From contig JAIGNY010003789.1 in the NCBI GenBank assembly GCA_020152595.1, positions 1 through 64,000 on the forward strand: a stretch of 64,000 nucleotides of DNA, given 5' to 3'. Below are positions 1,738 to 63,280 of the stretch, one piece after another. This DNA comes from Chiridota heheva (taxonomy: Eukaryota; Echinodermata; Holothuroidea; Apodida; Chiridotidae). The translations under genes were made by a program, and so were the position numbers. The notes under the pieces are model-generated. The model was not told the origin of the DNA and made no database searches. It saw nothing but the letters and a program-made list of their open reading frames with translations. Position 1 is the stretch's first letter; every line of letters begins with the position of its first letter.

Positions 1738-13361
<11,624 letters not shown>

Positions 13362-33957: not shown

Positions 33958-35883
33958 GAAGGTATATTAAGCTCACCATGTTGTTGCTATGCCTAGCCAT
34001 CTTGTAGTTTATTAGGCTTACCGCGTTGTTGCTATGCCTGGCCATCTTATAGTATATTAAGCTCACCACCTTGTTGCTATGCCTGGCCATTTTGTAGTAT
34101 ATTAGGCTCACCATGTTGTTGCTATGCCTGGCCATCTTATAATATATCAAGCTCAACACGTTGTTGCTATGCCTGGACATCTTATAGTATAATAAGCTCA
34201 TCACGTTGTTGCTATGCCTGGCCATCTTATAGTATAATAAGCTCACCACGTTGTTGCTACGCCTGGCCACCTTATAGTATATTAAGCTCACCACGTTGTT
34301 GCTACGCCTGGCCATCTTATAGTATATTAAGCTCACCATGTTGTTGCTACGCCTGGCCATCTTATAGTATGTTAGGCTCACCACGTTGTTGCTACGCCTG
34401 GCTAGCTTATAGTATATTAAGCTCACCACGTTCTTACTATGCCTGGCCATCTTGTAGTATATTAAGCTCACCATGTTGTTGCTATGCCTGGCCATCTTAT
34501 AGTATATTAAGCTCACCACCTTGTTGCTATGCCTGGCCATTTTGTAGTATATTAAGCTCACCACGTTGTTGCTACGCCTGGCCATCTTATAGTATAATAA
34601 GCTCACCACGTTGTTGCTATGCCTGGCCATCTTATAGTATATTAGGCTCACCACGTTGTTGCTATGCCTGGCTATCTTACAGTATATTAAGCTCACCACG
34701 TTGTTGCTACGCCTGGCCATCTTATAGTATATTAAGCTCACCATGTTGTTGCTACGCCTGGCCATCTTGTAGTATATTAAGCTCACCATGTTGTTGCTAC
34801 GCCTGGCCATCTTATAGTATATTAAGCTCACCACGTTGTTGCTACGCCTGGCCATCTTATAGTATATTAAACTCACCACGTTCTTACTAGGCCTGGCCAT
34901 CTTGTAGTATATTAAGCTCACCACGTTGTTGCTAGGCCAGGCCATCTTATGGTATATTAGGCTTACCACGTTGTTGCTATGCCTGGTCATCTTATAGCAT
35001 ATTAAGCTCACCACGTTGCTATGCCTGGCCATCTTATAGTATATTAAGCTCACCATGTTGTTGCTACGCCTGGCCATCTTATAGCATATTAAACTTACCA
35101 TGTTGTTGCTACGCCTGGCCATCTTATGGTATATTAAGCTTACCACGTTGTTGCTACGCATGGCCATCTTGTAGTATATTAAGCTCACCACGTTGTTGCT
35201 ACGCCTGGCCATCTTATAGTATATTAGGCTCACCACGTTATGATATGCCTGGCCATATTGTAGTATATTAAGCTCATCACGTTGTTGCTATGCCTGGCCA
35301 TCTTATAGTATATTAAGCTCACCATGTTGTTGTTACGCCTGGCCATCTTATAGCATATTAAACTTACCATGTTGTTGCTACGCCTGGCCATCTTATAGTA
35401 TATTAAGCTCACCACGTTGTTGCTATGCCTGGCCATCTTATAGTATATTAAGCTCACCATGTTGTTGCTACGCCTGGCCATCTTATAGCATATTAAACTT
35501 ACCATGTTGTTGCTACGCCTGGCCATCTTATAGTATATTAAGCTTACCACGTTGTTGCTACGCATGGCCATCTTGTAGTATATTAAGCTCACCACGTTGT
35601 TGCTACGCCTGGCCATCTTATAGTATATTTGTCTCACCACGTTATGATATGTCTGGCCATATTGTAGTATATTAAGCTCATCACGTTGTTGCTATGCCTG
35701 GCCATCTTATAGTATATTAAGCTCACCATGTTGTTGTTACGCCTGGCCATCTTATAGCATATTAAACTTACCATGTTGTTGCTACGCCTGGCCATCTTAT
35801 AGTATATTAAGCTCACCACGTTGTTGCTATGCCTGGCCATCTTATAGTATATTAAGCTCACCACGTTGTTGCTACGCCTGGCC
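33958..35883. repeat. 45-bp satellite, about 43 copies
   Basis: The unit contains AAGCTCACCACGTTGTTGCT, CGCCTGGCCATCTTATAGTA and TATTA. Since 45 is 15 codons, it stays open for long stretches (442 codons on the minus strand, as a 15-residue repeat containing VSLIYYKMARRSNN). The variation is not protein-like: insertions and TA/CA changes are scattered over all codon positions. A block of about 404 bp (about 35237-35640) is repeated directly at 35641-35883, marked by the variant GTTATGATATG. Confidence 0.95.
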
Positions 35884-36431
35884 GTAGATCTTGAAGGATA
35901 CAATATGCAGGTATGTGAGATGTCCTTATTCAGGACACCATTCCAGGATCTTCCACTATCTCACCTACAAGTCATTTTTAAACATTTGCAAAAACTTAAA
36001 CAAATGACTTTACTTCGAACAAAATGAATGCTTTTACTATCCAAATTAAATTACCTGAACAACACCTGAATCAGGCAGAACATTTGCAAAAAGCCTCATA
36101 GGATTTGACTAGGGCAGCCTATCCATATTTTATAAACGGCGCTGTGAATATAGTAAGTGTTGTAGCTAAGCACATCCCGGGCATGGCTTCACCCCCCCCC
36201 CCCCTCCCCCCTCCCTTCTTCTTTTTTCCCCTTCCAACCCCCAGCCACACCCCACAAAGAAAACATCTGGCCGTCGATTCGCTAAATATAACATATTGAT
36301 AAATAACCTATACGTAAAATCGCTAAAGATAACACATGGTTAATTATAAAGTGATACGTAAAAGTTGCAAAAACATGATGAAGCAGCTTTTGAAGCCTGT
36401 TTTAAACTAAATTTTCAAAAAAGAAAGAAAA
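35884..36431. other. Spacer between the 45-bp and 17-bp satellites
   Basis: Contains a C-run (36190-36212) and one stray monomer of the 13-kb AT-rich satellite at about 36100-36156. No gene is recognised. Confidence 0.55.
36100..36156. repeat. Orphan monomer of the AT-rich satellite
   Basis: The stretch reads GGATTTGACTAGGGCAGCCT, then ATTTTATAAACGGCGCTGTG. This matches the monomer order GGATTTGAC, GACAGCCT, ATTTTATAAACGGCTTGGTG of the array that ends 2.6 kb to the left. Confidence 0.65.
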
Positions 36432-38489
36432 TAGAGTCCGACCGGGGACCAAGCCACAGTCTGAACGTGGACTGAGACTGAACGGGGACCGAGCCATAGT
36501 CTAACTGGGGACCAACCCAGAGTCCGACCGGGGTCTGAAACAGCAGAGTCCAATCGGAGACTGAGCTAGACTCCGGCCGGGGACCGAGCTAGAGTCCGAC
36601 CGGGGACCGAGTCCGACCAGGGACCGAGTCCGACCAGGGACCAGTCCCGACCGGAGACCGAGTCCGACTGGGGGACCGAATCCGACCAGGGACCGAGTAC
36701 GACCGGGGACCAAGTCACAGTCTGAACAAGGACTGAGACTGACCAGGGACAAAGCCAGAGTCCAACTGGGGACCAAGCCAGAGTCCGACCGGGGTCCGAG
36801 CCAGAGTCCGACTGGGGACCTCGACTAACCTAGACTGACCTAAGCTCCGGCCGGGGACGGAGCTTGATTCCAAATAGGATCGAGTCCGACCGGGGATCGA
36901 GTCTGGCCGGGGACCAAATCCGACCGGGCGCCAAGTCCGACCGGGGGCCGAGTCCGACCGGGTACTGAGTTCGACGGTGGACCAAGTTCGACCAGTGACA
37001 AATCCAGAGTTTGTCCGGGAACCGAGTCGGACCGGGGACTGAAACAGAGTCCGACCTCGGACAAAGTCCGACCGGAAACCCAGCCAAAATCTGATTGGGG
37101 AACGAGTCAGAGTCCGATCGGAGACCGGGTCCGATCAGGGACCAAGTCCGACCGGGTCTAAGTCCGACCGGCGAATGAGCCACAGTCCATCTGGGACCGA
37201 GACCGACCGAAGACCGAGCCAGAGTCCAGCCAGGGTTCGAGTCCGACCGGGGACCAAGTCCGACCGGGTCGGAGTCCGACCGGCGAATAAGCCAAAAGTC
37301 AGAGCCAGAGTCCAACTGGGAAACGAGTCGGACCATGAAATGAGTCTGACTGGGGACCGAGCCAGAGTCCGACCGAAGACCGACCGGGTACCGAATCCGA
37401 CCGGGTTCTGAGTTCAACAGAAAACCGAGTTTGACCAGTGACCAATGCAGAGTTCGACCAGGGACCGAGTCTGACCGGGGACCGAGTTCGACCGGGGACC
37501 GAGTCCGACCGGGGACCAAGTCCGACCAAGGACCGAGTCCGACCGGGGATCGAGTCCGACCGGGGACCGAGTCCGACCGGGGACCGGGTCCGACCGGGGA
37601 CCGAGTCTGACCGGAGACCGAGTCCGACCGGGGACCGATGCCGACCGGGTACCAATGCCGACCGGAAACGGAGGCCGACTGGGGACCGAGGCCGACCGAA
37701 AGGCCAATGCGACCGAGGACCAAGGCCGACTGGGAACCGAGTCCGACCAGGGACCGAGTTCGACCAGGGACCGAGTCCGACCGGGGACCGGTGCCGACCG
37801 GGTACCAATGCCGACCGGAAACCGAGTCCGATCGGGGACCGAGTCCGACCGGGGACCGAGTCCGACCAGGAACCGAGTCCGACCAAGGACCGAGTCCGAC
37901 CAGGGACCGAGTACGACCAGAGACCGGGGACCGAGTCTTACGACCGAGTCCGACCGAAGACCGAGTCCGACCGGGGACCGAGTCCGACCGGGGACCTAGT
38001 CCAACCAGGGACCAAGCCCGACCAGGGACCGATGCCGACCGGGGTCCCTGTCCGCCCGGACACCGAGTCCGACCGGAGACCGAGTCCGACCGGGAACCGA
38101 AACCGACCGGGGACCGAGTCCGACCGGGGACCGAGTCCGACCGGGGACCGAGTCCGACCGGGGACCAAGTCCGCCCGGACACCGAGTCCGACCGTAGACC
38201 GAGTCCGACCGGGAACCGAAACCGACCGGGGACCGGGTCCGACCGGGGACCGAGTCCAACCGGAAACCGAGTCCAAACGGGGACCAAGTCCGACTGGGGA
38301 CCGAGTCCGACCGAAAACCGAGTCCGATGGGGACCGAGTCCGATCGAGTCCGACCAAGGACCGAGTCCGACCGGGGACCGAGTCCGACCGGGGACCGAGT
38401 CTGACCGGGGACCAAGTCCGACCGAGTGTGACCGGGAACCGAGTCCGACCGGGGACCGAGTCCGACCGGGGACCAAGTCGACCGGGGAC

Positions 38490-38520
38490 CGAGTCTGACT
38501 CGGTCCCTGGTCGGATTTGG
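38490..38520. other. Left inversion junction in the 17-bp satellite
   Basis: The sequence passes from complement units to forward units through GACCGAGTCTGACTCGGTCC (38476-38505 region), an almost perfect palindrome. Upstream everything reads GGGGACCGAGTCC; downstream everything reads GGTCGGACTCGGTCC. Confidence 0.85.
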
Positions 38521-41500
38521 TCCCCAGTCGGACTCGGTCCCCGATCGGACTCGGTCCCCGGTCGCATTGGTACCCGGTCGGCATCGGTCCCCGGTCGGAC
38601 TCGGTCTTCGGTCAGACTCGGTCCCCGGTCGGACTCGGTCCCCGGTCGGACTCGGTCGGACTCGGTCCCCGGTCGGACTCGGTCCCCGGTCGGACTCGGT
38701 CCCCGGTCGGACTCGGTCCCCGGTCGGACTCGGTCCCCGGTCGAACACAGTCGGACTCGGTCCCTGGTCGGACTCGGTCCCCGGTCGGATTTGGTCCCCG
38801 GTCGGACTCGGTCCCCGGGCGGACTCGGTCACTGGTCGGACTCGGTCCCTGGGCGGACTCGGTTCCCAGTCGGACTCGGTACCCGGTCGGACTCGGTCCC
38901 CGGTGGGACTCGGTCTCTGATCGCATCGGCCTCCGTTTGGCCTCGCTCCCCAGCCAGCATCGGTCTTCGGTCGGCATCAGTACCCGATCGGCATGGTTCC
39001 CCGGTCGTTCTCCGGTCAGACTTGGTCCCCGGTCGGACTCGGTCCCCGGTCGAACTCGGTCACGGTCGGACTCGGTCCCCGGTCGGGCTCGGTCCCCGGT
39101 CGGACTCGGTCCCCGGTCAGACTCGGTCACCGGTCGGACTCGGTCCCCAGTCGGACTTGGTCCCCGGTCGGCATCGGTCCCCGGTCGGACTCGGTCCCCG
39201 GTCGGACTCGGTCCCCGGTCGGACACGGTCGGACTCGGTCCCCGGTCGGACTCGGTCCCTGGTCGGATTTGGTCCTCGGTCGGACTCGGTCCCCGGTCGG
39301 ACTCGGTTTCCTGTCGGACTCGGTCCCCGGTCGGATTTGGTCCCCGGTCGGACTCGGTCGGAGTCGGTCCCCGGTCGGACTCGGTCCCCGGTCGGACTTG
39401 GTCTTCGGTCAGACTCGGTCCCCGGTCGGACTCGATCCCCGGTCGGACTCGGTCCCCCGGTCGGACTCGGTCCCCGGTCGGACTCGGTTCCCGGTCGGAC
39501 TCGGTGCCCGGTCGGACTCGGTCCCCGGTCGAACACGGTCGGACTCGGTCCCTGGTCGGGCTTGGTCCCTGGTTGGATTAGGTCCCCGGTTGGACTCGGT
39601 CCCCGGTCAGACTCGGTCTTCGGTCGGACTCGGTCCCCGGTAAGACTCGGTCCCTGGTCCCCAGTCGGACTCGGTCCCTGGTCGGACTCGGTCCCTGGTC
39701 GGATTTGGTCCCCTGTCGGACTCGGTCCCCGATCGGACTCGGTCCCCGATCGCATTGGTACCCGGTCGGCATCGGTCCCCGGTCGGACTCGGTCTTCGGT
39801 CAGACTCGGTCCCCGGTCGGACTCGGTCCCCGGTCGGACTCGGTCGGACTCGGTCCCCGGTCGGACTCGGTCCCCGGTCGGACTCGGTCGGTCCGGTCGG
39901 TCGGTCCCCGGTCGGACCGGTCCCCGGTCGGACTCGGTCCCCGGTCGGACTCGGTCCCCGACTCGGTCGAACACAGTCGGACTCGGTCCCTGGTGGTCGG
40001 ACTCGGTCCCCGGTCGGATTCGGTCCCCGGTCGGACTCGGTCCCCGGGCGGACTCGGTCACCGGTCGGACTCGGTCCCCGGTCGGACTCGGTTCCCAGTC
40101 GGACTCGGTCCCCGGTCGGACTCGGTCCCCGGTCGGGACTCGGTCGGAGTCTCGATCGCATCGGCCTCCGGTCGGCCTCGCCCCCAGCCAGCATCGGTCT
40201 TCGGTCGGCATCGGTACCCGATCGGCATGGTTCCCCGGTCGTTCTCCGGTCGGACTCGGTCCCCGGTCGGACTCGGTCCCCGGTCGAACTCGGTCACGGT
40301 CGGACTCGGTCCCCGGTCGGGCTCGGTCCCCGGTCGGACTCGGTCCCCGGTCGGACTCGGTCACCGGTCGGACTCGGTCCCCGGTCGGACTCGGTCCCCG
40401 GTCGGCATCGGTCCCCGGTCGGACTCGGTCCCCGGTCGGACTCGGTCCGGTCGGTCGGACACGGTCGGACTCGGTCCCCGGTCGGACTCGGTCCCGGGTC
40501 GGATTTGGTCCTCGGTCGGACTCGGTCCCCGGTCGGACTCGGTCCCCGGTCGGACTCGGTCCCCGGTCGGATTTCGGTCCCCGGTCGGACTCGGTCGGAG
40601 TCGGTCCCCGGTCGGACTCGGTCCCCGGTCGGACTCGGTCCTTCGGTCGGACTCGGTCCCCGGTCGGACTCGTCCCCGGTCGGACTCGGTCCTCGGTCGG
40701 ACTCGGTCCCCGGTCGGACTCGGTCCCCGGTCGGACTCGGTCCCCGGTCGGACTCGGTGCCCGGTCGGACTCGGTCCCCGGTCGAACACGGTCGGACTCG
40801 GTCCCCGGTCGGGCTCGGTCCCGGTCTGGATTCGGTCCCCGGTTGACTCGGTCCCCGGTCAGACTCGGTCTTCGGTCGGACTCGGTCCCCGGTAAGACTC
40901 GGTCCCCGGTCTCCGGTCAGACTCGGTCTCCGGTCAGACTCGGTCACCGGTCGGACTCGGTCCCTGGTCGGATTCGGTCCCCGATCGGACTCGGTCCCCG
41001 GTCGCATTGGTACCCGGTCGGCATCGGTCCCCGGTCGGACTCGGTCTTCGGTCAGACTCGGTCCCCGGTCGGACTCGGTCCCCGGTCGGACTCGGTCCCC
41101 GGTCGGACTCGGTCCCCGGTCGGACTCGGTCCCCGGTCGGACTCGGTCCCCGGTCGGACTCGGTCCCCGGTCGGACTCGGTCCCCGGTCGGACTCGGTCC
41201 CCGGTCGGACTCGGTCCCCGGTCGGACTCGGTCCCCGGTCGGACTCGGTCCCCGGTCGAACACGGTCGGACTCGGTCCCTGGTCGGACTCGGTCCCCGGT
41301 CGGACTTGGTCCCCGGTCGGACTCGGTCCCCGGTCGGACTCGGTCCCCGGTCGGACTCGGTCCCCGGTCGGACTCGGTCCCCGGTCGGACTCGGTACCCG
41401 GTCGGACTCGGTCGGACTCGGTCCCCGGTCGGACTCGGTCCCCGGTCGGACTCGGTCCCCGGTCGGACTCGGTCCCCGGTCGGACTCGGTCCCCGGTCGA

Positions 41501-44500
41501 ACACGGTCGGACTCGGTCCCTGGTCGGACTCGGTCCCCGGTCGGATTCGGTCCCCGGTCGGACTCGGTCCCCGGTCGGACCGGTCGGTCGGTCGGACTCG
41601 GTCCCCGGTCGGACGGTCCTCCGGTCCCCGGTCGGACTCGGTCCCCGGTCGAACTCGGTCCCCGGTCGGACTCGGTCCCCGGTCGGACTCGGTCCCCGGT
41701 CCCCGGTCGGACTCGGTCCCCGGTCGGACTCGGTCCCCGGTCGGACTCGGTCCCCGGTCGGACTCGGTCCCCGGTCGGAGTCGGTCCCCGGTCGGCATCG
41801 GTCCCCGGTTTCCCGGTCGGACTCGGTCCCCGGTCGGACTCGGTCTCCGGTCGGACACGGTCCCCGGTCGGACTCGGTCCCCGGTCGGACTCGGTCCCCG
41901 GTCAGACTCGGTCGTCGGTCGGACTCGGTCCCCGATCGGACTTTGTCCCCGGTCGGACTCGGTCGGACTCGGTCCCCGGTCGGACTCGGTCCCCGGTCGG
42001 ACTCAGTCCCCGGTCGGACTCGGTCCCCGGTCGGACTCGGTTTCCGGTCGACTCGGTCCCCGGTCGGACTCGGTCCCCGGTCGGACTCGGTCCCCGGTCG
42101 GACTCGGTCCCCGGTCGGACTCGGTCGCCGGTCGGACTCGGTCCCCGGTCGGACTCGGTCCCCGGTCGGACTCGGTCCCCGGTTGGATTCGGTCCCCGGT
42201 CGGCATCGGTCCCCGGTTTAGACTCGGTTTCCGGTCGGACTCGGTCCCCGGTCGGACTCGGTCCCCGGTCGGACTCGGTCCCCGGTCGGACTCGGTCGGA
42301 CTCGGTCCCCGGTCGGACTCTCCCCGGTCCTCGGTCGGACTCGGTCGGTCCGGTTTCCGGTCGGACTCGGTCCCCGGTCGGACTCGGTCGGTCGGACTCG
42401 GTCCCGGTCGGACTCGGTCCCCGGTCGGACTCGGTCCCCGGTCGGACGGTCGGTCGGTCCCCGGTCGGACTCGGTCCCCGGTCGGACTCGGTCCCCGGTC
42501 GGACTCGGTCCTCGGTCGGACTCGGTCCCGGTCACTCGGTCCCCGGTCGGACTCGGTCGGTCCGGTCGGACTCGGTCCCCGGTCGGATTCGGTCCCGGTC
42601 CGACTCGGTCCCTATCGGTCGGTCGGTCCCCGGTCGGACTCGGTCCCCGGTCGGACTCGGTCCCCGGTCGGACTCGGTCCCCGGTCGGACTCGGTCCCCG
42701 GTCGGACTCGGTTCCGGTCGGACTCGGTCCCCGGTCGAAAACGGTCGGACTCGGTCCCTGGTCGGACTCGGTCCCCGGTCGGACTCGGTCCCCTATCGAA
42801 CTCGGTCCCCGGTCGGACTCGGTCCCCGGTCGGACTCGGTCCCCGGTCGGACTCGGTCCCCGGTCGGACTCGGTCCCCGGTCGGACTCGGTCCCCGGTCG
42901 GACTCGGTCCCCGGTCGGACTTTGTCCCCGGTCGGACTCGGTCGGACTCAGTCCCCGGTCGGACTCGGTCCCCGGTCGGACTCGGTTTCCGGTCGAACTC
43001 GGTCCCCGGTCGGACTCGGTCCCCGGTCGGAATCGGTCCCCGGTCGGACTCGGTCGCCGGTCAGACTCGATCCCCGGCCGGACTCGGTCCCCGGTCGGAC
43101 TCGGTACCCGGTCAGACTCGGTCCCCGGTCGGACTCGGTCCCCGGTCGGGCTCGGTCCCCGGTTGGACTCGGTGCCTGGTCGGCATCGATCCCCGGTCGG
43201 AGTCGGTCCCCGGTCGGACTCGGTCCCCGGTCAGACTCGGTCCCCGGTCGGACTCGGTCCCCGGTCGGACTCGGTTTCCGGTCGGACTTGGTTCTCGGTC
43301 GGACTCGGTCCCCGGTCGGACTCTTTCCCCGGTCGGCATCGGTCCCCGGTCGGACTCGGTCCCTGGTCGGACTCAGGCTCCGGTCGGACTCGGTCCCTGG
43401 TCGGATCAGGCTCCGGTCGGACTCGGTCCCCGGTCGGCATCGGTCCCCGGTCGGACTCGGTCCCCGGTCGGACTCGGTCCCCGGTCGGACTCGGTCCCCG
43501 GTCGGACTCGGTCCCCGGTCGGACTCGGTCCCCGGTCGGACTCGGTCCGGTCGGACTCGGTCCCCGGTCCCCGGTCGGCATCGGTCCCCGGTTTCGGACT
43601 CGGTTTCCGGTCGGACTCGGTCCCCGGTCGGACGGTCGGTCGGTCCCGGTCGGACTCGGTCCCCGGTCGGACCCGGTCCCCGCTCGGACCCGGTCCCCGG
43701 TCGGACACGGTCCCCGGTCGGACTCGGTCCCCGGTCGGACTCGGTCCCCGGTCGGACTCGGTCGGACTCGGTCCCCGGTCGGACTCGGTCCCCGGTTGGA
43801 TTCGGTCCCCGGTCGGCATCGGTCCCCGGTTTAGACTCGGTTTCCGGTCGGACTCGGTCTTCGGTCAGACTCGGTCCCCGGTCGGACTCGGTCCCCGGTC
43901 GGACTCGGTCGGACTCGGTCCCCGGTCGGACTCGGTCCCCGGTCGGCTCGGTCCCCGGTCGGACTCGGTCCCCGGTCGGACTCGGCCCCGGTCGGACTCG
44001 GTCCCCGGTCGGACCGGTCGGACTCGGCCCGGTCAGACTCGGTCCCCGGTCGGCATCGGTCCCCGATCGGACTCGGTCCCACGTCGGACCCGGTCCCCGG
44101 TCGGAATCGGTCCCCGGTCGGACTCGGTTTCCGATCGGACTCGGTCCCCGGTCGAAAACGGTCGGACTCGGTCCCTGGTCGGACTCGGTCGGACACGGTA
44201 CCCGGTCGGACTCGGTCCCCGGTCGGACTCGGTCCCCGGTCGGACTCGGTCCCCGGTCGGACTCGGTCCCCGGTCGGACGGTCGGTCCCCGGTCGGACTT
44301 GTCCCCGGTCGGACTCGGTCGGACTCAGTCCCCGGTCGGACTCGGTCCCCGGTCGGACTCGGTTTCCGGTCGAACTCGGTCCCCGGTCGGACTCGGTCCC
44401 CGGTCGGACTCGGTCCCCGGTCGGACTCGGTCGCCGGTCAGACTCGATACCCGGCCGGACTCGGTCCCCGGTCGGACTTGGTCCCCGGTCGGACTCGGTC

Positions 44501-47074
44501 CCCGGTCGGACCCGGTCCCCGGTCGGACCCGGTCCCCGGTCGGACACGGTCCCCGGTCGGACTCGGTCCCCGGTCGGACTCGGTCCCCGGTCGGACTCGG
44601 TCCCCGGTCGGACTCGGTCCCCGGTCGGACTCGGTCCCCGGTCGGACTCGGTCCCGGTCGGACTCGGTCCCGGTCAGACTCGGTCGGTCGGACTCGGTCC
44701 CCGGTCGGACTCGGTCCCCGGTCGGACTCGGTCCCCGGTCGGACTCGGTCCCCGGTCGGACTCGGTTTCCGATCGGACTCGGTCCCCGGTCGAAAACGGT
44801 CGGACTCGGTCCCTGGTCGGACTCGGTCCCCGGTCGGACTCGGTCCCCTATCGAACTCGGTCCCCGGCCGGACTCGGTCCCCGGTCGGACTCGGTCCCCG
44901 GTCGGACTCGGTCCCCGGTCGGACTCGGTCCCCGATCGGACTTTGTCCCCGGTCGGACTCGGTCGGACTCAGTCCCCGGTCGGACTCGGTCCCTGGTCGG
45001 ACTCGGTTTCCGGTCGGGCTCGGTCCCGGAGTCTCGGTCCTCGGTCCCCGGTCGGACTCGGTCCCCGGTCGGACTCGGTCCCGGTCGGTCGGACGGTCGG
45101 TCGGACTCGGTCCCCGGTCGGACGGTCGATCGGTCCCCGGTCGGACTCGGTCCCCGGTCGGTCGGACACAGTACCCGGTCAGACTCGGTCCCCGGCCGGA
45201 CTCGGTCCCCGGTCGGACTCGGTCCCCGGTTGACTCGGTGCCGGTCGGCATCGGTCCCCGGTCGGCATCGGTCCCCGGTCGGACTCGGTCCCCGGTCGGA
45301 CTCGGTCCCCGGTCGGACTCGGTCCCCGGTCGGACTCGGTCCCCGGTCGGACTCGGTCCCCGGTCGGACTCGGTCCCCGGTCCTCGGTCTCGGTCGGACT
45401 CGGTCCCCGGTCGGACTCGGTCCCCGGTCGGCATCGGTCCCGGTCGGTCCGGTCGGCTCGGTCCCCGGTCGGACTCGGTCCCCGGTCGGACTCGGTCCCC
45501 GGTCGGACTCGGTCCCCGGTCGGATCAGGTCCCCGGTCGGACTCGGTCCCGGTCGGTCGGTCCGATCGGTCGGTCGGACTCGGTCCCTCGGTCGGACTCG
45601 GTCCCCGGTCGGACCCGGTCCCTCGGCATCGATCGGACTCGGTCCCCGGTCGGACTCGGTCCCCGGTCGGACTCGGTCCCCGGTCGGACTCGGTCGGTCC
45701 CGGTCGGACTCGGTCCCCGGTCGGACTCGGTCCCGGTCGGACTCGGTCCCCGGTCGGACTCGGTCCCCGGTCGGACTCGGTCCCCGGTCGGACTCGGTCC
45801 CCGGTCGGACTCGGTCGGACTCCCGGTCGGACGGTCCCCGGTCGGTCCCCGGTCGGACTCGGTCGGTCGGACTCGGTCGGACTCGGTCGGACTCGGTCCC
45901 CGGTCGGACTCGGTCCCCGGTCGGACTCGGTCCCCGGTCGGACTCGGTCCCCGGTCGGACTCGGTCCCCGGTCGGACTCGGTCCCCGGTCGGACTCGGTC
46001 CCGGTCGGACTCGGTCCGGTCGGACTCGGTCCCCGGTCGGACTCGGTCCCGGTCCCTGGTCGGGTCGGTCCCCGGTCGGACTCGGTCCCCGGTCGGACTC
46101 GGTCCCGGTCGGACTCGGTCCCGGTCGGACCGGTCGGTCGGACTCGGTCCCCGGTCGGACTCGGTCCCGGTCGGACTCGGTCCCCGGTCGGACTCGGTCC
46201 CCGGTCGGACTCGGTCCCCGGTCGGACTCGGTCCCCGGTCGGACTCGGTCCCCGGTCGGACTCGGTCCCCGGTCGGACTCGGTCCCCGGTCGGACTCGGT
46301 CCCCGGTCGGTCGGACTCGGTCGGACTCGGTCCCCGGTCGGACACGGTACCCGGTCAGACTCGGTCCCCGGTCGGACTCGGTCCCCGGTCGGATTTGGTT
46401 CCCGGTCGGACTCGGTCCTCGGTCGGACTTGGTCCCCGGTCGGACTCGGTCCCCGGTCGGACTCGGTCCCCGGTCGGACTCGGTCCCCGGTCGGACTCGG
46501 TCCCCGGTCGGACTCGGTCCCCGGTCGGACTCGGTCACCGGTCGGACTCGGTCCCCGGTCGGACTCGGTCCCCGGGCGGACTCGATCCCCGGTCGGTATC
46601 GGTCCCTGGTCGGACTTGGTCCCTGGTCGGACTCGGTCGTAAGGCTCGGTCCCCGGTCTCCGGTCGGACTCGGTCCCTGGTCGGACTCGGTCCCTAGTCG
46701 GACTTGGTTTTCGGTCAGACTTGTTCCCCGGTCGGACTCGGTCCCGGTCACACTCGGTCGGACTTGGTCCCCGGTCAGACTCGGTCCCCGGTCGGACTCG
46801 GTCCCCGGTCGGACCCGGTCCCCGGTCGGACTCGGTCCGGTCGGACTCGGTCCCGGTCGGACTCGGTCCCCGGTCGGACTCGGTCCCGGTCGGACGGTCC
46901 CCGGTCGGTCCCCGGTCGGACTCGGTCCCTGGTCGGACTCCCCGGTCGGACTCGGTCCCCGGTCGGCCTCGGTCCCCGGTCGGACTCGGTCCCCGGTCGG
47001 ACTCGGTCCCCGGTCGGACCCGGTCCCCGCTCGGACCCGGTCCCCGGTCGGACACGGTCCCCGGTCGGACTCGG

Positions 47075-47130
47075 TCCCTGGTCGGACTCGGTCCGACCGG
47101 ACCGAGTCCGACCGGTCGGACCGGTCCGAC
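47075..47130. other. Right inversion junction in the 17-bp satellite
   Basis: Forward units end in GGACTCGGTCC and turn over through CGACCGGACCGAGTCC and GACCGGTCGGACCGGTCC into complement units. Short palindromes (GACCGGTC, GGACCGGTCC) crowd the switch. Confidence 0.85.
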
Positions 47131-48486
47131 CGGGGACCGATGCCGACCTGGTACCAATGCCGACCGAAAACCGAGGCCGACACCGGACCGAGGCCCGGGG
47201 CCAACCGGCGACCGGGGACCGAGTCCGACCGGGGACCGAGTCCGACTGGGGACCAAGTCCGACCAGGGACCGAGTCAGGCCGGGGATCGAGTCTGACCGG
47301 GGACCGAGTCCGACCGGGGACCAAATCCGACCGGGGACCGAGTCCGACCGGAAACCGAGTCCGACCGGGGACCGAGTCCGACCGGGGACCGAGTCCGACC
47401 GAGGACCAAGTCCGACCAGGGACCGAGTCCGACCGGGGACCGGGGAGTCCGACCGGGACCGAGTCCGACCGGGGACCGAGTCCGACCGGGGACCGAGTCC
47501 GACTGGGGGAGTCCGACCGGGACCGAGTCCGACCGGGGACCGGGGAAGTCCGACCGGGGACCGAGTCCAACCAGGGACCGAGTCCAACCGGGAACCGAGT
47601 CCGACCGGGAACCGAGCCGACCGGGGACAGAGTCCGACCGGGGACCGAGTCCGACCGGGGACCGAGTCCGACTGGGGACCGAGTCCGACCGGAGACCGAC
47701 CGGGGAACCATGCCGATCGGGTACCGATGCCGACCGAAGACCGATGCTGGCTGGGGACCGAGGCCAAACGGAGGCCGATGCGATCAGAGACCGAGTCCGA
47801 CCGGGGACCGAGTCCGACCGGGTAACGAGTCCGACTGGGAACCGAGTCCGCCCAGGGACCGAGTCCGGCCAGTGACCGAGTCCGACCGGGGACCGAGTCC
47901 GACCGAGGACCGAAACTAACCGGAGACCGAGTCCGACCGGGGACCGATGCCGACCTGGTACCAATGCCGACCGAAAACCGAGGCCGACTCGGGACCGAGG
48001 CCAAACGGGGGCCAATGCGACCGGGGACCGAGTCCGATCGGGGACCGAGTCCGACTGGGGACCAAGTCCGACCAGGGACCGAGTCCGGCCGGGGATCGAG
48101 TCTGACCGGGGACCGAGTCCGACCGGGGACCGAGTCCGACCGTGACCGAGTTCGACCGGGGACCTAGCGAGAGTACGAATGGGGACCGAACCATAGTCCG
48201 ACTGGGGTTCGAGCTAGAGTCTTAAGCTATCCGACAGGGGATTGAGCTAGAGTCCGACCGGAGACAGAGTACAACCGGAGACCGAGTCTTACCGTGGACC
48301 AAAACAGGGGACCGAGTCCGACATGGGACCGAGTCTAAACGGGGACAGAGTCCTACCCGGGACGGAGTCCCAACGGGGATCAAGCCACAGTCCGCACGGG
48401 GACCGAGATCCACCGGGAACCGAGTCCGACCGGGAACCGAGACAGAGTCTGACTGGGGACCTAGTCCGACCGAACCCGAGTCCGGT

Positions 48487-49044
48487 GAACAACACGTACA
48501 TTTATCTGACTAAAAGTGCTCTTCATTGTTAAAAGCGTTCTAATATCATAAGTACGAGTACAAACTCAGAATTGTGCTCATGAATACAAAAATTGTACTC
48601 ACACTACAAGTTGGGTTATAATCATGGATTATTCAACATATCAAAGAGCCTATACGCGCCTAATGGATTTCTTTTTTTGTATTTCTTATAAAAGGTCGAT
48701 GGACATGTAGCGGTTTCTTTCTTGCCTAAAATCTGATCAGATCAGTTTGTTGATTTTAGAACAAATTACGTTTATGTTTTAAGCTATGGTTGACTAGAAT
48801 TGTATCAGTTTTTTAATTAAGCTAAATTTGTGACGTATGCATGGGCGGGCGGCTCAGATCTTTAAGTAATTCTCTAAACAAAAATAAATTTCTCCAACTT
48901 TATCGGGGGCACAGTGAAGAATCAGAAACTTTTGCTCAGAATTTCCTACACCACTTAAAAAAGTATGATAGACATTTAAAAACCAAAGTATTACAAAAGA
49001 TTATCAGGGTCGCCCTTTATACATCCAAAGTTCAAGCTCAAGTT
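48487..49044. other. Spacer between the 17-bp and 71-bp satellites
   Basis: Single-copy-looking AT-rich DNA of about 560 bp. No gene is recognised; an open frame that starts here at 48841 runs into the TA microsatellite and is not credible. Confidence 0.5.
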
Positions 49045-49100
49045 CATAACATTTATATGGTGCTATATCTGAAAAAATGTATTCTAATGCGCCTAGCATT

Positions 49101-61581: not shown

Positions 61582-62424
61582 ATTTGAATCTGAATCTGAA
61601 ACATTTAAGCGGCAAAAATCCCTTAAGAGGACATGAACGCCAACCGAGCGTAAAAAGTATGAGTAAAAATAATATAAAAAAAACTATTTAGCAATACAGG
61701 TGTTAGTAAGTTTAGCTTTGAAACAATTGAGACTTAGTGCATGAACAATGTCTGACGGTAAAGCATTCCAATCCTTTAGTGTGTGAGGGAAGAAAGAGTG
61801 TTTATATACATTCTTTTTAGCATAGGGAACCTGGAAATTAAGGTCATGATTATTTCTTGTATTAGTTCTAACGGTGGGTATAAGTTCATCTTTATTGATG
61901 GCGACAAGATTGTTATTGATTTTATATAGCATATGTAGCCGGGTGTTGTATCGTCTTGTTTTAAGCAGGGGCCAATCTAATTTATAACATTTTTTACACT
62001 AGATTTATAAGAGTAGTCTGCCATACAGAACCTGGCTGCTCTCCTTTGAATAGATTCAAGTTTATCCACATCGCACTGGTGATGGGGGTCCCAGACTGCA
62101 GATGCGTACTCAAGTACTGGCCTGACTAGAGCTTTATAAGCAGTGGATTTAACGTCGGTGGGACAGTTTAAGAGGTTACGTTTTAAAAGGCCAAGTATAG
62201 AGTTAGCTTTCTTGGTTATGTTATGTATATGTTTATCCCATCTAAGTTTATTATCAATTTCAACACCTAGGTATGGGTGGGAGTTGACATGTTTTAGTGG
62301 CTGGTTGCATAAGGTATAAACAGGTGATTTAAAGCATTTCTTAGAGAAAATTGACAAGATGTAGCATTTGGAGGGGTTGAAATTCATTTGCCATTTGTTT
62401 TGCCATTGTTCAAGTTGAACCACA
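61582..62424 (-). pseudogene. 5'-truncated LINE fragment: reverse transcriptase C-terminus and 3' tail
   Basis: Minus-strand coding remnants. The part at 62423-61977 encodes WQMNFNPSKCYILSIF, HPYLGVEIDNKLRWDKHI, LLKRNLLNCP and LVRPVLEYASAVWDPH, then LESIQRRAARF. This is the thumb and C-terminal part typical of CR1/Jockey-superfamily LINEs. A frameshift at about 61976 separates it from 61932-61684 (VPYAKKNVYKHSFFPHTLKD, WNALPSDIV) and a stop. After a short 3' untranslated region it ends in TTCAGATTCAGATTCAAATC, a short tandem tail. The polymerase core is absent, so the copy is dead on arrival. Confidence 0.85.
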
Positions 62425-63280
62425 AAACGGCAACAGGACGCCTACAATTTCAAGCATTGCAGTGGGTTTTTTTTTTTATTACATAAATTATGATAGCAAA
62501 CTTAGTAAACCCTATTTCATAACTTTATAAATGAAATTTCCTCTTCGAAAATCCGCAATCAATTAATTTTGAAATATCTAAGGGTGGTTTGATTCTAATC
62601 GGCCAAAAATAAAAGTTAAGATCACCCTTTTTATACCCTCATAAACTTCATATCCTCATAAACGGTTACCGCGGAGATGATTATGGAATTGTATATGTCT
62701 GATATAAGCGCATGGTTATTATAATCATAATTGGAATTTTCACAAACATTAATCAATGAAAAGAGAAAAACTTACCAAAGCTGCAAATATGTTGCGTATT
62801 TCTGACAAAAACATTGACTTGAACAGTTTCTCTTCCACCAGTGTCCAAAGCCCAGTTTCTCTTCCACCAGTGTCCAAAGCTTCATTCTTCCTCAAAAATG
62901 CAACTAGATCCTTCTCTCGAGATGTCCACAAATCAAATGACGCCAATTTTGAATCTAAGCAAGCATTATGACGCCACCACGATCAAGCATTTTGAAATAA
63001 ATCTTAGCTAAGACTTCCATCACAAGAAGAATATTTCAATGAAAATTCCTTAAATATTACCGTTTTTTGATATAAATTGTATGGTCGTTGAAGAATTAGT
63101 GCTTTCAGTTCTGGAACAAAATACATTAGATTGGCACTACAAATGTGTTGTGGCGAAGAGCGCTATTCTATCTTTAGCAAAAGCTTTAATTGATTTTTTA
63201 CTAAATCCCGTGATTCTAAACAGTGTTATACACTGCCGAGTGTTGTGACAATGAAACACACTGATATAAAAGAAATAAGA
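62425..63280. other. Intergenic region with a small tandem duplication
   Basis: CAGTTTCTCTTCCACCAGTG is repeated at 62824 and 62853 (29-bp period). The surrounding open frames on both strands (about 62749-62971) have no recognisable similarity and are not called as genes. Confidence 0.45.

Follow-up and report, generated by a model that had tools for sequence, protein, structure and literature searches.

Locus-specific minisatellites, or variable number of tandem repeats (VNTR) arrays, combine a short GC-rich tandem unit with diverged edges, a homogeneous centre, and higher-order duplications. Large GC-rich tandem arrays have also been described, among them DXZ4, D4Z4 and the tandem CpG-island hotspots of the dog (PMC3491370, PMC5333175). 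Invertebrate genomes are methylated patchily and mostly in genes, and satellite methylation has been measured for SSUsat of the bivalve Spisula subtruncata (PMC5537241). Here we analyse a CpG-dense block, a continuous tandem array of the 17-bp unit GGTCCCCGGTCGGACTC in the holothuroid Chiridota heheva. It comprises about 715 units at positions 36433-48486 of the window, that is, bases 1-64000 of the 603,770-bp contig JAIGNY010003789.1 (C3309 below) in an assembly of 1.10 Gb and 3744 contigs (GCA_020152595.1).

The reading we favour, with a probability of roughly 0.6, is that of a locus-specific satellite, in effect a very long minisatellite, which would belong to a small GC-rich 17-bp family, be little methylated in the germline, and form a passive, orphan CpG-island-like block.

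A CpG-dense array with a homogeneous centre

The array spans 12,054 bp with a GC content of 0.714 and an observed/expected (o/e) CpG ratio of 1.21, while its flanks have a GC content of 33-38% and CpG o/e values of 0.53 and 0.82. Each unit carries three CpG, one of them spanning the unit boundary. An earlier sequence-only reading had announced a 12-kb CpG-dense array of a 17-bp unit with on the order of 2000 CpG sites; the array is real, and we count 1851 CpG in 36432-48486 against 1020 in the remaining 52 kb of the window. This corresponds to 153.6 CpG per kb, compared to 21.9 per kb in ten random 2-kb pieces of the genome. CCGG sites are distributed likewise, with 540 in the array and 31 elsewhere in the window. 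By sequence a CpG island is at least 200 bp long, with a GC content above 50% and a CpG o/e above 0.6, and the array lies within this definition on all three counts. Its head-to-tail 17-bp copies, with two changes of orientation, also make it a tandem satellite or minisatellite.

The sharp change in composition noted earlier is borne out by the 1-kb bins, which range from 0.65 to 0.75 GC wholly within the array and drop to 0.41-0.43 on its left and 0.07 on its right. The AT-rich satellites claimed for both sides are found only on the right, as AT and 71-bp arrays; the neighbour to the left is a 45-bp array with 42.5% GC.

The array falls into three blocks, L, M and R, of which the central one is inverted relative to the other two (Table 1). 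The sequence-only reading had overlooked these two orientation switches, as well as the higher-order duplications of about 1.25 kb and the related arrays at other loci described below. Calculated per 430 bp, the identity to the consensus runs from 0.815 to 0.919 in L, from 0.891 to 0.995 in M, and from 0.839 to 0.943 in R, in agreement with the high divergence at the edges and low divergence in the centre that had been described; the exact consensus occurs in 203 of the 516 parsed units of M. Duplicates of segments some 250-620 bp long lie 1188, 1235 and 1254 bp apart, and at many other distances, with 93-97% identity. The non-consensus units of M show their strongest recurrence at 74 units (~1.26 kb); lags of 96, 75 and 72 units come next.

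Table 1 Features of the array and its surroundings in the window; block identities and unit numbers are from wraparound alignment to the consensus
Feature	Position	Strand	Remarks
Block L, diverged	36434-38488	-	~118 units, identity 0.854; bins 36401-38400 without + strand unit 9-mers
Switch L/M at 38488	38480-38500		9-mer strand changes in bin 38401-38600
Block M, most homogeneous	38488-47092	+	~515 units, identity 0.949; ~1.2-kb higher-order duplications
Variant-rich segment of M	38757-39230	+	inverted copy in R, 47474-47947
Switch M/R at 47092	47081-47140		composed of scrambled part-units
Block R, diverged	47093-48486	- (like L)	~82 units, identity 0.877
Left flank	35884-36432		single-copy as a whole; first ~190 bases with diverged dispersed relatives
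Right flank	48487-49045		contains dispersed-repeat pieces
Trypsin-like serine protease exons	1738-2064, 2359-2577, 6966-7268	-	Pfam PF00089

A centre more uniform than the edges, together with segmental duplicates, is a pattern of homogenisation, and probably reflects exchange within the array, as the sequence-only reading had proposed when it pointed to unequal exchange. A short 17-mer seed could have been amplified first; unequal exchange, together with the duplication of stretches about 1.25 kb long, would then have made the middle uniform, while older units persisted at the edges, the ends of an array exchanging less. Hairpin-driven expansion was considered but is not supported, as the unit folds no better than its shuffles.

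How did the central block come to be turned round? The variant-rich segment of M and its inverted copy in R are 91.2% identical over 479 aligned columns, and their core (38906-39030 versus 47798-47674) reaches 96%. R shares variant 20-mers with M in the proportions 124/494 and 84/537 for the first two eighths and 22/378 for the last. A fold-back origin of the M/R switch was rejected, as R has many variant 20-mers in common with the left end of M and few with the right end that it adjoins; an inversion or a later growth of M fits this resemblance better. With M mentally turned round, the members of the inverted pair come to lie some 1.1 kb from each other, close to the higher-order spacing, and this favours the inversion. 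At least one rearrangement may have turned a part of about 8.6 kb, namely M. Block L complicates this account: it has 70 variant 20-mers in common with the left-hand 2.2 kb of M and 37 with the right-hand 2.2 kb, and its 430 bp nearest to the junction favour the right of M (21 versus 11) while the next two bins favour the left (34 versus 4 and 20 versus 10). A single inversion does not explain L, and the picture is mixed.

Orientation switches could also be false joins, and mis-assembly is frequent in long low-complexity arrays, so that the block might be an artefact of assembly or a contamination. We consider this very improbable. The array lies inside a contig of 603,770 bp, and its internal variants build higher-order duplications. 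The left flank has eight matches in the genome, with the full 543 queried bases matched only by its own locus; the right flank has 41 matches (40 of 770 candidates scored), and among those scored its full 559 bases are likewise matched only by its own locus. A prokaryotic or viral source was rejected, the respective collections containing nothing beyond isolated 17-mers, one per stretch (22 and 2 stretches), and related arrays are present on other contigs of the same assembly.

One locus for the unit, several for its kind

The exact 17-mer GGTCCCCGGTCGGACTC is found 211+32 times (two orientations) in the assembly and the same 211+32 times in the window, and a 40-mer with up to three mismatches 249+41 times in both; by these two counts the unit is not present in large amounts at many loci, unlike an abundant genome-wide satellite of the centromeric or heterochromatic type. 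The unit pattern read backwards has no copy in the whole genome, so that the copies in the window are not due to chance. A broader family pattern, in which two units are separated by two loose positions, one of which may not be G, and up to three mismatches are allowed, yields 60+258 hits in the genome, of which 46+258 are in the window and 14+0 on contig C3522. The latter holds an array of 260 bp and 15.3 copies, whose unit differs at two of the 17 positions and retains the three CpG. Shuffled letters of this unit match at 15/17 with P 0.0001 and at 13/17 with P 0.005, values that refer to a single pair of units and take no account of how many arrays the genome contains. The idea of a strictly single-locus array was overturned by this second locus and then by further related arrays. 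Searching the whole assembly, as had been suggested, therefore upholds a locus-specific unit sequence, whereas the kind of array, with its relatives on other contigs, is not locus-specific.

With the C3522 array as query, nine contigs yielded 23 matches, the query itself and the window counted among them; such DNA searches are not exhaustive, as the one that revealed the C3522 locus did not list the window itself. As a control, the reversed unit was searched in the same assembly and gave seven matches on four contigs with 70-75% identity and up to 132 bits. By identity, two arrays stand above this control in addition to the window array: that of C2529 (best 81%, 242 bits; 89 copies in 1498 bp) and that of C2447 (best 81%, 194 bits; 1084 bp). 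The window array matches the C3522 query with 80% identity, its 123 bits being within the control range. The matches on C3668, C1934, C1196, C1365 and C2044 (68-73%, up to 99.6 bits) are no better than the control. Judged from these comparisons, besides C3522 only C2529, C2447 and the window exceed the control by identity, and the five others are alike in kind only. The arrays on the nine contigs have periods of 15, 16, 17 or 20.

The array at C1365:319172-327391 (loci L105, L103 and L106) has the 17-bp unit GTCGCAGACCCCGGTCG and extends over at least 8.2 kb, reaching beyond the fetched piece, with about 453 units, a GC content of about 0.75 and about 185 CpG per kb; no orientation switch occurs in the 9.4 kb examined. 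Its unit shares CCCCGGTCGG with the window unit and agrees with it at 13 of 17 positions. Two control matches, on C1589 and C1601 (L107, L108), are also 17-bp arrays with 70% GC, of the unit AGCCCTGGTAGGGGTCC, which by eye is near the second half of the C1196 array; they contain no CpG in 728 bp and one in 1194 bp, respectively.

These arrays might form a class of GC-rich 17-bp arrays, scattered over the genome, that meet one of two fates: some would be CpG-dense and unmethylated in the germline although the genome around them is CpG-depleted (C3309, C1365, C3522, C2529 and C2447; up to 12 kb), and others, of equal period and GC content, nearly CpG-free (C1589, C1601). We regard this as doubtful. 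If true, the long arrays would be orphan CpG-island domains arising from the growth of satellites instead of from genes, and the class would offer a natural experiment on the causes that protect DNA from methylation.

A spread of the arrays as transposon cargo was rejected: the loci on C3309, C3522, C2529 and C2447 have no common flanks within 0.25-1.3 kb per flank, and the sole match between loci is one of 53 bp and 77% (C2529 and C2447). The letters of the unit, in four phases, were not found in the literature searched.

Substitution patterns and germline methylation

Methylated CpG mutates to TpG or CpA. Owing to this mutability, transitions at CpG should exceed those at other C and G positions wherever units are methylated. 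In the array, CpG versus other C/G transitions amount to 82/697 versus 76/810 in L, 105/3032 versus 130/3442 in M, and 40/483 versus 44/561 in R, a ratio of 1.04 over all blocks (0.86-1.24, block bootstrap) and of 0.92 (0.69-1.17) in M. A strong CpG decay appears to be absent from the array, and a weak one, most of it at the old left edge, would be possible. The test does detect decay in the same window: in a 38-bp array at 8309-10065, 26 kb from the 17-bp array, the ratio is 45 (15/93 versus 1/280). The 45-bp array gives 4.7 (33/171 versus 28/685), with CpG changes that are all C-to-T on one strand and hence perhaps inherited variants. The 28-bp array has a unit without CpG and hence no ratio.

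Among the other arrays, C2044 not included, ratios are 0.29 in C1365 (13/2684 versus 51/3066), 0.61 in C2529 (3/358 versus 7/510), 0.15 in C2447 (3/270 versus 24/322), 0 in C1934 (0/186 versus 37/817), and 0.40 in C3522 (1/90 versus 3/109).

Much of the genome is CpG-depleted, and it is probably methylated in patches, to judge by its CpG content. The ten random pieces have CpG o/e values of 0.33-1.09 (pooled 0.66, with TpG at 1.18 and CpA at 1.17), at or below 0.62 in six of them, and the non-array parts of the window and the next 40 kb range over 0.51-0.82 and 0.43-0.77. A C-terminal exon of DNMT1 is present in the assembly (E 2.5e-20 to a DNMT1 chain).

Several points weigh against a low germline methylation of the array. 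Leaving out the mutable CCCC run raises the ratio to 1.70 (1.38-2.13; L 1.95, M 1.53, R 1.78), and on this strict baseline a weak or edge methylation is possible. AT-rich neighbours show little or no CpG excess, with 1.48 (1.12-1.94) in the 61-bp and 0.56 (0.26-1.21) in the 71-bp array, so that low CpG decay is not unique to the 17-bp array. Two short arrays on other contigs give high ratios, C1196 with 5.3 (1/42 versus 1/221; interval 0.33-84) and C3668 with 5.0 (5/106 versus 1/105; interval 0.58-42). Tandem copies do not change independently of one another, and precision is limited for the low ratios of C1365, C2447 and C1934, since part of their non-CpG transitions stems from one or two variant positions (C10 in C1365, G9 in C2447, C1 and C2 in C1934). 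Finally, four of the ten random pieces have a CpG o/e of at least 0.85.

Could the block instead be a heterochromatic satellite that is methylated in most cells, its CpGs persisting only through youth and constant homogenisation? The setting resembles heterochromatin, with seven tandem-array intervals covering 62.6% of the window (1-59847). The excess on the strict baseline is highest at the old edge L, where TG/CA doublets number 74/332 and single transitions at CC/GG 99/678. In the bivalve, the methylation of SSUsat is above that of its genome, 3.38% versus 1.13% (PMC5537241). Against this stand the flat overall ratio, the still lower one in the equally CpG-dense C1365 array, and the strong decay in the 38-bp array nearby. 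Moreover, within a unit the CpG and non-CpG sites are equally old and equally homogenised, so that youth alone should not flatten the ratio. We consider such a methylated satellite unlikely, if deserving of serious attention.

The sequence-only reading had named two possible states, a large methylated domain or an unmethylated CpG-island-like block. On balance, the substitution spectrum leans toward a low germline methylation of the array, under which its three CpG per unit would have decayed not much faster than other sites.

A passive block or a functional one

In the cell, the array might then form a very large, open, passive CpG-island-like block, an orphan with neither gene nor protein, possibly bound by readers of unmethylated CpG.

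The CpG core might alternatively be under selection, the array serving as a transcribed or protein-binding platform such as a promoter-like island, a boundary, or a macrosatellite-like organiser. The motif CCCGRTCRG, counted on both strands, has a frequency of 0.47-1.65 per 17 bp in seven of nine arrays, block M included, and is found only seven times in 20 kb of random pieces; since the arrays were picked by similarity, a common core is in part to be expected. CpG o/e values reach 1.2-1.6 in the arrays on C3309 (M), C3522, C2529 and C2447, while the near flanks of the latter three have 0.17-0.66, and exons of a trypsin-like gene lie 29 kb from the window array. Yet the core is wanting in two of the nine arrays (C3668 0.00, C1196 0.05), and the reversed-unit control also yields 17-bp GC-rich arrays, the two examined being those with 0 and 1 CpG. 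There is no Rfam match at the gathering score and no tRNA, and single-strand folding is ordinary compared to shuffles (z 0.13 and 0.27). All in all, a selected functional domain seems improbable.

The array also contains a stop-free frame of 3494 amino acids on the + strand (37435-47919), which could suggest a protein-coding repeat, and this longest + frame exceeds those of all 300 column-resampled simulations (mean 2066). The total number of stops is as expected, though, with 63 versus 66.3 on the + and 74 versus 79.9 on the - strand. We put the long frame down to unit composition, because the consensus unit is stop-free in every frame and its length of 17 is not divisible by 3. Since the frame crosses both strand switches, its repeat peptide would change twice along the way, and it overlaps with further long frames on the two strands. 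That the array codes for a protein is extremely improbable.

The surrounding sequence

Among the chosen frames examined, recognised gene exons occur only at 1738-7268 of the window. A retrotransposon piece at 4248-4769 (+) has a match to RVT_1, and a stretch at 61684-62441 (-) is reverse-transcriptase-like by eye only, without a Pfam match. The trypsin-like exons, the RVT_1 piece and the DNMT1 exon are in keeping with an animal genome; a search of the assembly for COX1 returned no match. The adjoining 45-bp array (33962-35883) is seemingly confined to this locus, with an exact 26-mer of it counting 13 copies both in the genome and in the window. In the sequence L033, bases 8816-9693 hold a retrotransposon-like frame piece with a zinc-finger-like stretch and the sequence GDIESNPGP, which we take to be a 2A-like motif. 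In the sequence L036, bases 4301-7111 hold another tandem repeat, with long stop-free frames of a proline/serine-rich peptide.

Comparison with known systems

With its 1851 CpG and 540 CCGG sites in 12 kb, the array offers a clean test object for whether CpG density alone goes along with freedom from germline methylation, and the CpG-dense and CpG-free arrays on other contigs provide built-in comparisons. To our knowledge it is unusual in three respects: so large a CpG-dense array of a 17-bp unit outside mammals, its near absence from the rest of the genome, and the presence of CpG-dense and CpG-free arrays of equal period in one genome.

With minisatellites and VNTR arrays it has in common the short GC-rich unit, the diverged edges, the homogeneous centre and the higher-order duplications. 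It differs in its two internal orientation switches and its three CpG per unit, and 12 kb and about 715 units are long for this kind.

SSUsat resembles it as an invertebrate satellite with CpG and CCGG sites. It differs in its 315-bp unit, its 44% GC and its share of at least 1.3% of the genome, and no higher-order repeats were found in it (PMC5537241); the exact unit of the window array, by comparison, is single-locus and known from its sequence alone. DXZ4, D4Z4 and the dog CpG-island hotspots share with it the large CpG-dense blocks formed by GC-rich tandem arrays (PMC3491370, PMC5333175). DXZ4, with kilobase units bound by CTCF, is set apart from an array with a 17-bp unit and no known protein binding, whose higher-order shifts of about 1.2 kb are irregular. 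Taken together, the array is an unusual but explainable satellite.

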